From Chitinophagaceae bacterium (GTDB taxonomy: Bacteria > Bacteroidota > Bacteroidia > Chitinophagales > Chitinophagaceae), in the NCBI GenBank assembly GCA_004028795.1, contig SAIW01000008.1:62001-126000 (forward strand): a stretch of 64,000 nt of DNA, given 5' to 3'. Positions within the stretch are counted from its first letter, which is position 1, and each line of letters starts with the position of its first letter. Positions 186 through 7,772 of this stretch are shown piece by piece. Under the pieces are notes generated by a model that saw only the letters and a program-made list of their open reading frames with translations, was not told the DNA's origin and did no database searches. The translations under genes and the position numbers were made by a program.

Positions 186-770
186 TTAAAACCACCTATT
201 AGTAGTGCGTTGCATTGTACTGTAGTTGTTGGATGCAGTAGTATCTGCATTTTTTTCTGAAGTAATTTTTATCTTCTCTGGTAGCGATAAAATTAATTCT
301 CCATCCTGGGTAATTTCCTGATCATAATCTGAACCCAAACCTAAATGTTTATGTTTAGCAGCAAATATTTTAAGTAAATCTTCAATACTTTGTTTTTTTA
401 AATTTCCTTCAACTGTTGCGTTTTCTTCAACAATAAAATTATTGGCAAAAACATCTCCGCTTACAAGAGCACCATTCATAATACTTACTTTCCCTTTACT
501 GAATATTTCACCTTCTACCTGTCCGAAAATCATTATTTCTGAGGCAAAAAAATAACCACTTACAACAGCTTTTTTGCCTATGATAAGTTTATCTGAAATA
601 TTTATTTTTCCATTGAAAAAACCATCTAACCTGCCTTTACATTCTCCGGTAATATCTCCGGTAACTTTCATGCCGGCGGGCAATAAAAAACTTTCTACTT
701 CCGGCGTTTGTTTACCAAAATGCAGGTGCTTATAATGTTTTAAAAACTGAAATCTCTCTTTATTAAGCAC
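186..770 (-). CDS. Bactofilin family cytoskeletal protein
   Basis: A 194-residue protein with a bactofilin core at about residues 29-124. The core is a run of short beta-helix repeats rich in Gly and Val, such as KVTGDITGECKGRLDG, VSGYFFASEIMIFGQVEGEI and VSGDVFANNFIV. Bactofilins polymerise without nucleotide and act as scaffolds in cell shape, stalks or polar organisation. The tail after residue 125 is polar and probably disordered. The start is GTG at 768-770, which overlaps the end of the actin-like gene by 8 bp, so translation is probably coupled. An internal ATG (residue 34) would remove the first strand of the fold, so I prefer GTG. The partner of this bactofilin is unknown. Confidence 0.85.
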   Translation of the reverse strand: MLNKERFQFLKHYKHLHFGKQTPEVESFLLPAGMKVTGDITGECKGRLDGFFNGKINISDKLIIGKKAVVSGYFFASEIMIFGQVEGEIFSKGKVSIMNGALVSGDVFANNFIVEENATVEGNLKKQSIEDLLKIFAAKHKHLGLGSDYDQEITQDGELILSLPEKIKITSEKNADTTASNNYSTMQRTTNRWF

Positions 771-1791
771 TGAAGTAAGAAATTATAGTTGATGAATTGC
801 CTAAATCTATTCCTACACAACCTCTTGAATGTGTAGATGAAAGTGAATAAGAATTGTATAAATAACCTATGCTTGCAACATTCTGCGAATCTATAACTGC
901 TTCTACTTTCATAAAATCTTTAAACTCTTCATAAAACGCATCTCTTAAATCATCGTAATAAACACCTCCGCCAATTAAATAAATACATTCACATCTTTCA
1001 AAATCACGGTCTGTAATATGGTTTTTTATAGAAGGAGAAATTACCTGCCTGTAGTATTGGCCTAAAATATCTTTTCTTAACTCTCTTAATTCTATTTTTT
1101 TTCTGTTTGCAATCATTACACCTTTCATTAATGAGTCGTTAATCTGAAACTCATTTTTTAATTCTAAGTAGTGCAGCTTGTTTAATTCTCTTTGCAGATT
1201 ATTTACAACATATCTTATACCATGCACACTAAAGCAGGTTCTTTGCACAAGTCCGTCTTCTGTAGCCATACCGCCTTCTGCTGTTCCGTAGCCTAAACTT
1301 ATAACAATAAAATTTTTAGGCTGTTGGCTAGAGTACATTTTCTTAACACCAATTACACCGCCTACCAATTCAGGAATAATATCAAATTGACCTATTTCAA
1401 AATTTGAACGGCGGGAAGTACCGTTTAGTGTAAATGTTTCAGTATTGTATTCAACAGAAAAAAACTTCTTTTCTAAAAATTTAGATAAAGGCTGTTTATA
1501 AATATTAAAAGTAGAGAAAGGCAAACCCATTGTTAGTGTTAAGGGTTGCTCAACTTTATCCATTAAATTAAGCAGTGCTGCTTTAAACAATAACTCGTAG
1601 TCTCTTTCATCGGGAGATGAGTTGATGATACGTTGTGGATTAAGACCATCTTTCTTGGCTAATTCGCCAATTACATACCATAAATTATTGTTGCGAACTT
1701 TAATACCACTGATTAAATCGTTAGCTGTGTTTTCAGTATTACCATATGATGGTTCAAAAACACTTGGAAAACTTAGGGTTGATACTTTCAT
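763..1791 (-). CDS. Actin-like ATPase of the ParM/StbA group, apparently circularly permuted
   Basis: A 342-residue protein. The visible blocks follow ParM-like proteins in an unusual order. The N-terminus begins at the 'FPS' segment (residues 8-10). The GELA block (42-45), GLP (89-91), a phosphate-2-like SLGYGT (165-170), the adenosine motif IGGG (273-276) and NVASIGY (304-310) come next. The phosphate-1 motif IDLGNSSTII (328-337), normally at the extreme N-terminus, sits at the very C-terminus. An in-frame TAA lies three codons before the ATG, so no N-terminal phosphate-1 strand is missing from the start call. The phosphate-2 Asp is replaced by Ser165. The gene overlaps the downstream bactofilin gene by 8 bp. 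The family assignment is firm. Filament formation and the biological role are inference. Confidence 0.8.
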   Translation of the reverse strand: MKVSTLSFPSVFEPSYGNTENTANDLISGIKVRNNNLWYVIGELAKKDGLNPQRIINSSPDERDYELLFKAALLNLMDKVEQPLTLTMGLPFSTFNIYKQPLSKFLEKKFFSVEYNTETFTLNGTSRRSNFEIGQFDIIPELVGGVIGVKKMYSSQQPKNFIVISLGYGTAEGGMATEDGLVQRTCFSVHGIRYVVNNLQRELNKLHYLELKNEFQINDSLMKGVMIANRKKIELRELRKDILGQYYRQVISPSIKNHITDRDFERCECIYLIGGGVYYDDLRDAFYEEFKDFMKVEAVIDSQNVASIGYLYNSYSLSSTHSRGCVGIDLGNSSTIISYFSA

Positions 1792-1811
1792 TGTTTGTTA
1801 GGAGTGAAGCT

Positions 1812-5445: not shown

Positions 5446-5563
5446 TATTCCAGATTCGGGAAAATTTTTCCCAAAACTGTTTGTCATGCCAATGTCTATT
5501 AACATTTTCTTTTTAAACCGTTGTGATTTCTTTCAGTCTTTAATTATGAAATTTGCATTGTAA

Positions 5564-5704
5564 TTGAAACGCGGGCAGCACAAAAAGTTCTTAAAGGCTC
5601 TGATAATTGTAAAAAGTAAGGAAGTTAAAAAGGCTAAGGATTTTTTAACAGAAAAAATGAAACTTTTGGCAAACAGTTTGCGTACATTTATTATAGAATT
5701 TTAA
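5564..5704 (+). CDS. Possible small basic protein, 46 residues
   Basis: An open frame beginning TTG AAA CGC encodes a Lys-rich, amphipathic 46-residue peptide (LKRGQHKKFLKALIIVK... ending LRTFIIEF). It is followed 40 bp later by a strong terminator. An ATG at 5546 lies in the same frame but meets a TAA after five codons (5561-5563), immediately before the TTG. Either the TTG is used, or the gene carries a nonsense change, or the region is a non-coding RNA. I recognise no family. The terminator without any other gene close before it is the main reason to believe something is transcribed here. Confidence 0.3.
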   Translation: MKRGQHKKFLKALIIVKSKEVKKAKDFLTEKMKLLANSLRTFIIEF

Positions 5705-5744
5705 AATAGTCAATTTTCTCATAAGCAGTTAGTTTTGGTTAACG

Positions 5745-5774
5745 GCCTCTGTTTCTACAGAGGCTTTTTTATTT
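5745..5774 (+). terminator. Rho-independent terminator
   Basis: Stem GCCTCTG (5745-5751) and CAGAGGC (5758-5764), followed by TTTTTTATTTT. It points in the + direction, 300 bp after the GH25 gene and 40 bp after the possible small ORF. Read on the other strand it has no T-tract. Confidence 0.8.
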
Positions 5775-6208
5775 TAAACCTTTTTTACAAACTGCGGTTT
5801 TGTTTTAATAGTATCTCCGTCAATGTACCAAAGTTCTTCTTCATAATTATGAAAACGAAACCATAAATAAACAATAAGGCTTCCAACTGCATCTGCCAAT
5901 GCATCTAAAACATCTCCTGTTCTGTATGGGATCAATAAATGCTGAATAATTTCTGTAGCAATAGCATAAACAAAGCAGGCCATCAGTATAATTGTTACCC
6001 ACATATTTTTCATTTCTTCTTCATCTTTACGACGCGGATAAATAAAAAGAAAAGCAAGCAGTGCAAAGAAACCTGCATGAACAATTTTATCGCAGTAATA
6101 TTTTTCAAACCAAGTTATTTCGGGTAATGCGTTGCCCGGTAAAAAAAATAGAATTAAGGTTATAATAAACCAGATTTGCCCTAAGCGTAGATCTTTTGCG
6201 AAAAACAT
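5774..6208 (-). CDS. VanZ-like family membrane protein
   Basis: A 144-residue inner-membrane protein with about four transmembrane helices: residues 9-24, 40-57, 70-92 and 100-117. It carries the family pattern 'DKIVHAGFFALLAFLF', then 'EIIQHLLIPYRTGDVLDALADAVGSL', the E..Q......R..D..D...D..G signature of VanZ proteins. VanZ itself gives low-level teicoplanin resistance, but most chromosomal relatives have no known role, so resistance should not be inferred. An exact -7 box lies 20 bp upstream. Confidence 0.8.
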   Translation of the reverse strand: MFFAKDLRLGQIWFIITLILFFLPGNALPEITWFEKYYCDKIVHAGFFALLAFLFIYPRRKDEEEMKNMWVTIILMACFVYAIATEIIQHLLIPYRTGDVLDALADAVGSLIVYLWFRFHNYEEELWYIDGDTIKTKPQFVKKV

Positions 6209-6432: not shown

Positions 6433-7233
6433 CTATCCAAGTTTTACAGCACCCAAAACAAACATCTGGTCGATGTGCGGAGAGGGGCTACCGCCTTCAT
6501 TTTCAAGGGTTATAGCAAAAGCCTGAGCTTTGGGAATATTTTTTAAATGGCATAAACCATTGCAATCTGCAATTAAGCCTGCATCAACAGGTTTTCCATC
6601 AACCAACGCCCACAATTGGTATTGTTTACCGGCAGGTGCAGCAGATAATTTATTAGCTAAGAGATAAACGTCTTTTGTTTTACTATCCCAAAAAACAGTA
6701 GTATAGTTATTTTCTCTTCCTTTAACACCCGGCATTGCCACTTTAACTACAGAAGGGTCGCTCATTAACTGCATGCTATTATACAAATCAAGCATTTTAG
6801 CCTGTGTACCCTCAACCTTTGCATTTAAACTTATTTTCTCATTTAAAATGGCGAGATAATTATTATTGGCTTCGTTGAATTTGTTAAAATAGTAAACATT
6901 CAAACCTGCACTTATTACTAATAAAATAACCGAGGCAGCAACAGTATATTGTAACCAATTTCTTTTTGGGGTGAATGGAATAACAGTAGCCTGTTTTTCT
7001 TCTGTAAATTCATCTTTTAATGCAGCAAAAATATTTTCTTTTACAAAAGACGGAGGAGTAAGGGAATTATTAACAGAAGTCTTTTCTAAAGAATTTTCAA
7101 AAGCAGTAACAGCCTGCTGTATTTCAGGATATTGTTTGCAAAGTTGTTGCAACTCGGCAGCTTCCTGAATATTGGCTAAGCCCAATACGTAACTTTCAAT
7201 TACGCCACTTTCTATGTATTCTTTTACATCCAT
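6433..7233 (-). CDS. Anti-sigma factor, RskA-type
   Basis: A 266-residue membrane protein. The N-terminal 80 residues form a zinc-less anti-sigma domain (SGVIESYVLGLANIQEAAEL..., 'YPEIQQAVTAFE'). One transmembrane helix follows at about 95-113 (YTVAASVILLVISAGLNVYY). The periplasmic part ends in the RskA/anti-sigma-K C-terminal domain, with the typical 'YLLANKLSAAPAGKQYQLWALVDGKPVDAG', 'FAITLENEGGSPSPHIDQMFVLG'. It should sequester the ECF sigma factor encoded immediately upstream: stop and start overlap as TAATG. Release by regulated proteolysis is known for the family, but the signal here is unknown. Confidence 0.9.
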   Translation of the reverse strand: MDVKEYIESGVIESYVLGLANIQEAAELQQLCKQYPEIQQAVTAFENSLEKTSVNNSLTPPSFVKENIFAALKDEFTEEKQATVIPFTPKRNWLQYTVAASVILLVISAGLNVYYFNKFNEANNNYLAILNEKISLNAKVEGTQAKMLDLYNSMQLMSDPSVVKVAMPGVKGRENNYTTVFWDSKTKDVYLLANKLSAAPAGKQYQLWALVDGKPVDAGLIADCNGLCHLKNIPKAQAFAITLENEGGSPSPHIDQMFVLGAVKLG

Positions 7234-7772
7234 TAACTTATAATTTGCCTCAATTGTATTAAGGCTGTTCTCATTCTTGTTTTTACTGTTCCTAAGGGTA
7301 CATCAATCATTCTTGAAATTTCATCTTGTGTAAATCCCTGAAAATACGAGAGTTCAATCAACACTCTGTATTCTTCTTTTAACTGGTGTACAATTTTTCT
7401 TAAACCAATTTTATCTACAACTGTTTGTTCAACTCCTGCCGCTGAATAATCATTTTCTGTTAATTCTTTGTTCTGCCTGTTGTTATTAAAACTTTTACTT
7501 CTCAATGTATCTATAGATGCATTACGAGCTATATTCAACATCCATGTAAACAATTTCCCTTTGCTTTCATCATATGTTTCTATCTGTTTCCAGATTTTTA
7601 TAAATACTTCCTGCAATACATCATTGGCCAGTTCATTATCGGCTACAACATTTACAATAACAGCATATAAAGCACCTGAATAATTATCATATAAATAACT
7701 ATATGCATTTTGGCTTCTCTGCTTTAAGAGTTGCACCAATTCAGGCTCTGTATATTTTTTTACTACCTGCAA
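7233..7772 (-). CDS. ECF RNA polymerase sigma factor (SigK-like)
   Basis: A 179-residue sigma-70-family regulator. Region 2 is at about 15-85 (AYSYLYDNYSGALYAVIVNVV, 'ANDVLQEVFIKIWKQI', 'FTWMLNIARNASIDTLRS'). Region 4 is at about 120-175 (YRVLIELSYFQGFTQDEISRMI, 'PLGTVKTRMRTALIQLR'). The only reasonable start is TTG at 7770-7772. A stop lies five codons upstream and no ATG is available before region 2. It is co-transcribed with its RskA-type anti-sigma partner, the usual arrangement for SigK/RskA modules. Confidence 0.9.
   Translation of the reverse strand: MQVVKKYTEPELVQLLKQRSQNAYSYLYDNYSGALYAVIVNVVADNELANDVLQEVFIKIWKQIETYDESKGKLFTWMLNIARNASIDTLRSKSFNNNRQNKELTENDYSAAGVEQTVVDKIGLRKIVHQLKEEYRVLIELSYFQGFTQDEISRMIDVPLGTVKTRMRTALIQLRQIIS

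Follow-up and report, generated by a model that had tools for sequence, protein, structure and literature searches.

Judged from its sequence, the protein encoded at positions 763-1791 of the window (the whole 64,000-nucleotide stretch of DNA analysed here) belongs to a conserved Bacteroidota family of ParM-like actins in which the beta1-beta2 phosphate-1 hairpin has moved from the N-terminus to the C-terminus. The hairpin, CVGIDLGNSSTIIS, is the C-terminus of a 342-amino-acid ParM-type actin homologue. A circular permutation of the actin-like fold is strongly supported by three kinds of sequence comparison, namely rotation tests, scans of profile against profile, and conservation across the family. 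Taken jointly, this permutation and a functional partnership with bactofilin, the usual downstream neighbour, are in our view highly probable.

Gene Organization and Motifs

The features of the locus that bear on this reading are as follows.

186-770, minus strand: bactofilin gene, 194 amino acids (PF04519, 74.1 bits, cut-off 27.9)
189-194, minus strand: codons for the Trp-Phe at the end of the bactofilin, the Trp signature of close partners
763-1791, minus strand: gene of the putative permuted actin-like protein, an open reading frame of 342 amino acids plus stop (ALP_N match, E 1.8e-12; homologues in other genomes)
766-816, minus strand: relocated phosphate-1 hairpin, residues 326-342 (VGIDLGNSSTIISYFSA), assigned from invariant residues and rotation tests
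964-972, minus strand: adenosine-motif GGG, residues 274-276, conserved in 46/46 family proteins
1276-1299, minus strand: phosphate-2 motif SLGYGTAE, residues 165-172, with Ser instead of the usual Asp (residue counts, n = 46)
1369-1371, minus strand: Glu141, presumed catalytic Glu/Gln position, conserved in 46/46
1753-1770, minus strand: FPSVFE, residues 8-13, the beta3-type strand with which the protein now begins, assigned from conservation and from its alignment after the canonical ParM phosphate-1 hairpin
1798-1800, minus strand: in-frame TAA three codons 5' of the ATG (the open frame starts Q-T-M)

In actin, Hsp70, ParM and MreB, the phosphate-1 hairpin opens the protein. The original prediction, which did not give the strand of the gene (minus), had placed IDLGNSSTII at residues 328-337, SLGYGT at 165-170 and IGGG at 273-276, and the translation of the open reading frame bears out all three positions; the C-terminal end of the protein reads RGCVGIDLGNSSTIISYFSA. 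It had also stated that the N-terminus opens at the FPS strand, which normally comes after phosphate-1, and that an in-frame stop excludes a missed N-terminal strand. Both statements hold: FPS occupies residues 8-10, and the TAA (1798-1800, minus strand), three codons 5' of the ATG, leaves no room for a longer protein. Its description of the moved element as a single strand did not survive as well as the relocation itself, as the element is better read as a beta-hairpin (beta1-beta2). Comparison with the N-terminus of Moorella phage ParM (MLVGIDLGYGQIKVVSDKQKVKFPSVVG) puts the permutation break at the beta2-beta3 turn, before the next strand. In that next strand, FPSVFE, S10 and E13 are present in 46/46 family proteins and P9 in 45/46.

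Distribution of the Family and Conservation of Its Chain Order

The family is patchily distributed. The gene was present in two of four genomes searched within the window's genus, in 21 of 394 from its taxonomic family, in 4 of 295 in the class sample (own genome included) and in 23 of 395 in the phylum sample. The last figure was reached after two of 25 matches had been dropped, namely an unrelated sugar-kinase-like protein (L050 in genome G548), presumably anhydro-MurNAc-kinase-like judging by its start, GLMSGTSLDGLD, and a 44-residue fragment at a contig edge (L051 in genome G740).

The genus, family and phylum samples gave 51 loci, which correspond to 47 distinct proteins, the window's included. 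Residue counts refer to an alignment of 46 distinct proteins, comprising 43 of these 47 and three from the class sample, which form 26 clusters at 70% identity. The other four (L013, L014, L038 and L042) enter the 47-member counts and were left out of the alignment because L013 has no ATG, GTG or TTG start in place, L042 has a stop flagged inside the match, and the pair L014 and L038 are similar to L012 and L037.

The chain order is shared throughout. All 47 distinct members have G-x-D-x-G-N within their last 60 residues, a tail motif expected from composition with a chance of about 1e-4 per protein, and all have the PS strand within their first 16 residues (TS in one), while D-x-G is found in the first 30 residues of none of the 47. 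The relocated hairpin has four invariant residues (G327, D329, G331 and N332, each in 46/46), and the G309-G327 spacing is 18 in 39 and 17 in seven of the 46 proteins. The original prediction had suggested looking for the same order in homologues, where it proved to be universal, and had named close homologues with a normal N-terminal DxG as a sign of local rearrangement; none occurs among the 47 distinct members. A local rearrangement, a sequencing artefact or a miscalled start has accordingly a negligible probability as an explanation of the order: the same arrangement recurs in all 47 distinct members, across taxonomic family, class and phylum, and in three further members from the taxonomic family f117, and the stop codon before the ATG excludes a wrong start.

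Profile Matches and Rotation Tests

In sequence terms, the 763-1791 protein counts as an actin homologue of ALP_N type, since its residues 4-143 match Pfam ALP_N (PF17989) above the cut-off (48.1 bits against 26.3, E 1.8e-12). The alignment starts at profile position 17 of 148, which indicates that the phosphate-1 hairpin is missing at the front of the protein. The same N-terminal piece is unmatched in profiles from three libraries, the other two being PRTRC_D (TIGR03739), matched weakly over profile positions 20-284 of 320 (19.4 bits against a cut-off of 214.8), and phrog_691, matched over positions 26-318 of 329 (E 3.4e-20). At E up to 0.1, ALP_N was matched by 34 of 43 family members and the Pfam archaeal MreB-like_C by 42 of 43; the 763-1791 protein scores 22.8 bits against the latter, under its cut-off of 27.8. 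Weak matches to MreB PF06723 occur in 19/43 members (best 2.7e-4), and none was found for the 763-1791 protein itself at E up to 1. The core shared with canonical ParM extends over residues 3-311 (hhalign probability 99.1). A profile of the family matches pCBH ParM (E 1.3e-7), and the closest of 15 canonical proteins is Moorella phage ParM (family profile E 2e-20).

In the rotation tests, the last 21 residues were moved to the front, with shuffled tails as controls. Rotation raised the ALP_N score from 48.1 to 57.2 bits (+9.1), with the profile now matched from position 1, and the phrog_691 score from 73.5 to 80.4 bits (+6.9); one shuffled tail gave 48.3 and 73.7 bits, respectively. When scored against a profile built from nine canonical proteins of plasmids and phages, 42 of 43 members gained (mean +7.9 bits) and one lost score, as compared with a mean of +0.24 bits and a rise in 21/43 for shuffled tails, the members being related so that these gains are not independent trials. 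When sequences were doubled, 38/43 aligned across the junction and five did not span it. Profile-profile comparison with hhalign gave 138.0 for the native order, 159.4-160.6 for rotation at residues 317-326, and 138.6-141.5 for five column-shuffled tails; five other cut points gave 93.8-150.0, the top value coming from the nearest, residue 301. A scan of cut points against the 15 canonical proteins peaked at residue 313 (190.6; native 169.5).

Active Site and Predicted Structure

By their sequences, the family proteins lack two features of the canonical fold, the N-terminal phosphate-1 and the phosphate-2 Asp. At the phosphate-2 Asp position, the 46 proteins have Ser (43), Gly (2) or Asn (1), and the surrounding G167, G169 and E172 are invariant (46/46). 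Also conserved is Glu141, which we take to be the catalytic Glu/Gln position of ParM and actin. The D199S change of Hsc70 (structure 1qqm), which we assume to be the equivalent of the family's phosphate-2 Ser, reportedly lowers ATPase activity strongly. The replacement of the Asp by Ser in 43/46 makes strong ATPase activity doubtful and, together with the effect of Hsc70 D199S, leads us to expect a nucleotide-binding, slowly hydrolysing protein; as far as sequence can tell, then, the permuted actin is likely to bind nucleotide, with slow hydrolysis or none. Of the original designation, a circularly permuted actin-like ATPase, the permuted actin-like part is upheld by rotation and conservation at the sequence level, whereas "ATPase" is questionable given the replaced phosphate-2 Asp.

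AlphaFold models were made from a three-row alignment (mean pLDDT 37.9) and a four-row alignment (mean 43.6). In the four-row model, pLDDT is 60-76 for residues 231-300, 40-59 for about 161-230 and 23-30 for residues 301-342, and the C-terminal tail is unplaced in both of these low-confidence models. Foldseek searches with the low-confidence model ranked ParM first (2.3e-7) and Ta0583 next (9.4e-7). In VIA, ParM 6izr matched the low-confidence model with Z 11.6 and rmsd 6.8 over 214 aligned residues, and the Hsc70 structure 1qqm was also among the structure matches. The last 6izr residue, 349, pairs with model residue 314, and the other rows run to 303-328, which indicates that canonical chains stop roughly where the extra tail begins.

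It could be argued that phosphate-1 has been lost altogether and that the conserved peptide at the C-terminus has nothing to do with it, being for example a partner-binding tail, as the loss of the phosphate-2 Asp as well and the unplaced tail in the models might suggest. However, the tail, and not a shuffled tail, raises the score against the canonical phosphate-1 columns, and its G, D, G and N are invariant, making this explanation very improbable.

If the motif is indeed the relocated hairpin, it would fold back, after a linker of near-constant length, into the usual subdomain IA site of its own chain, where it would close the nucleotide pocket. Alternatively, the hairpin might complete the pocket of the next subunit in a strand swap, so that polymerisation and pocket closure would be one event. 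The swap fits all of the sequence evidence, which cannot separate intramolecular from intermolecular closure, and the hairpin comes last in the chain, behind a linker that is short and variable. However, intramolecular closure is simpler and needs no filament, and canonical ParM begins and ends in the same subdomain, so that the swap appears improbable, though not trivially so. Closure within the chain is the reading that we carry forward.

Genomic Context and the Bactofilin Partner

If the GTG listed for it is its start, the bactofilin gene at 186-770 of the window shares 8 bases with the actin gene; it encodes the only bactofilin found in this genome. Across the family, 44 of 51 loci (40 of 47 distinct) have a same-strand bactofilin gene downstream. 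No bactofilin was found nearby at seven of the 47 distinct loci, six of them with flanks of 11-12 kb and one (L029) with only about 1.5 kb downstream.

When close partners are defined as bactofilins on the same strand with a gap of less than 450 nt, there are 36 distinct ones, 34 of which have Trp in the last two residues; the remaining two end in Phe. By comparison, Trp occupies the last two residues in none of 68 other distinct bactofilins, most of which were the best-scoring 30 loci from each of two longer lists, and since the partner bactofilins are related by descent, no P value is claimed for the difference. The single comparison protein that ends in Phe (L066) is encoded about 1 kb away from a permuted-actin gene, outside the gap rule. 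The link is weaker at four loci of the f36 and f41 groups (L036 and L047-L049), where the bactofilin is more distant. In the only complete f36 example (L061), the bactofilin ends DLIK, without Trp, and lies outside the gap rule behind the gene for a TPR protein.

Several other arrangements were observed. At L061 (5738-9407), genes for an M23 peptidase, the permuted actin, the TPR protein and the bactofilin without a Trp tail follow on one strand; M23 peptidases are known bactofilin partners, according to the available parts of PMC10945521. At L007, two bactofilins (5489-5962 and 7019-7654) flank the permuted actin, and only the downstream one has the Trp-Phe end. Genome G239 has two diverged permuted-actin genes (L068 and L069), and each has a bactofilin of its own behind it, with the ends ESWF and PRWI, respectively; at a further locus of this genome (L113), two divergent bactofilin genes stand back to back, neither Trp-tailed, and no permuted actin was found there. 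At L056 (55-3756), the gene for a 1233-amino-acid pentapeptide-repeat protein of beta-helix type precedes, by 68 bases, a permuted actin with no bactofilin neighbor, and similar genes occupy the same place at L057 and L058.

At their C-termini, the three f117 actins (L102, L103 and L104) are extended by about 100 residues, rich in Pro and Ala, with the ends GMW, GMW and GTW, respectively. No bactofilin was found at these three loci, and the sole bactofilin of the f117 genome G849, encoded elsewhere, lacks the Trp.

Searches for canonical relatives and for family members on mobile DNA bear on the type of system involved. With PF17989, all 11 places found, in 10 of 296 genomes, were members of the permuted family, starting at profile position 16-21; no canonical relative was found among the 296 genomes, an absence that is weak evidence since the window's own genome was also unmatched there. 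Genome searches with TIGR03739 gave no matches, with the controls unmatched too, and a ParM fragment from Desulfitobacterium, used as a tblastn query for canonical relatives, found nothing. On mobile DNA, tblastn of a family member against phages likewise found nothing, and in scans of viral contigs the matches were all canonical phage loci (L100, the overlapping L174 and the fragment L175), with no family member among them. One could suppose that the protein is an ordinary DNA-segregation ParM whose chain order happens to be odd and whose substrate is plasmid, phage or chromosome DNA, considering that its nearest canonical relatives are plasmid and phage partition proteins. However, the family matched none of 72,556 plasmid and 50,697 phage records and its usual downstream neighbour is a bactofilin, leaving only a slim chance for a role in segregation.

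A Putative Actin-Bactofilin Module

We favor instead a bactofilin partnership, in which the permuted actin would act as a nucleotide-gated scaffold that grips the Trp-ended tail of its partner, and binding of the actin would control the site of bactofilin filament assembly, with a role in shape or the cell wall. By analogy with known client systems, docking of the bactofilin tail together with a role in shape may be possible, at somewhat less than an even chance. A more specific version, which we put forward tentatively and consider rather unlikely in all its parts, is a two-filament Bacteroidota module in which a hydrolysis-poor permuted actin grips the Trp-ended disordered tail of the bactofilin and the hairpin lid couples nucleotide state to binding, the f117 actin having a Trp tail of its own.

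A conserved family with the hairpin at the other end shows that the actin fold tolerates another chain order and that evolution has kept it. With this second chain order, the order of folding, the motion of the hinge and the contacts in filaments become open to direct tests. Should the link to bactofilin be true, actin-type and bactofilin-type filaments are genetically paired, with the Trp tail as a testable signature, and the two proteins may form part of an undescribed two-filament cell skeleton.

Comparison with Known Systems

The original prediction knew of no described permuted bacterial actin homologue of this kind, and we likewise found none in the open-access literature searched. None appears in the portions available of PMC6669507, PMC1079889, PMC4471445, PMC12448750, PMC10945521 and PMC12645912, and a word search of PMC7203096, likewise available in part, was without result.

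Ta0583 and MreB have the canonical chain order; the former ranked second in Foldseek with the permuted-actin model (9.4e-7). The plasmid and phage partition actins ParM/StbA and PRTRC_D have the core (residues 3-311) in common with the permuted family. They differ in that their phosphate-1 hairpin is N-terminal and their phosphate-2 residue is Asp, as opposed to a C-terminal hairpin and Ser. Compared with ParM partition systems, the permuted family is without plasmid or phage matches in the records searched and has bactofilin as its usual neighbor.

Among bactofilin systems, the client PadC of Myxococcus BacP binds the disordered C-terminal tail of the bactofilin, as far as described in the available text of PMC12448750, and the gene for LmdC, an M23 peptidase client of BacA, is genomically paired with its bactofilin, according to the accessible parts of PMC10945521. 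The tail-bound client of BacP makes docking on a bactofilin tail plausible by analogy (PMC12448750, in part). The same portions of these two papers describe bactofilin tails in known client systems as typically poorly conserved and mention no actin-like client for BacP/PadC or BacA/LmdC, whereas the tails of the permuted-actin partners end in Trp.

A further parallel is FcmB of filamentous cyanobacteria, a chromosomal ParM-derived actin that is needed for cell shape and whose interacting partner is encoded directly downstream, as reported in the available portion of PMC12645912. The permuted actin is similarly a chromosomal ParM-type protein with a partner gene downstream; by contrast, FcmB is cyanobacterial, and that portion of the paper mentions neither a permutation nor a bactofilin partner. 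FcmB thus provides a precedent for a partition actin being taken over for cell shape, the role suggested here for the permuted family (PMC12645912, in part).
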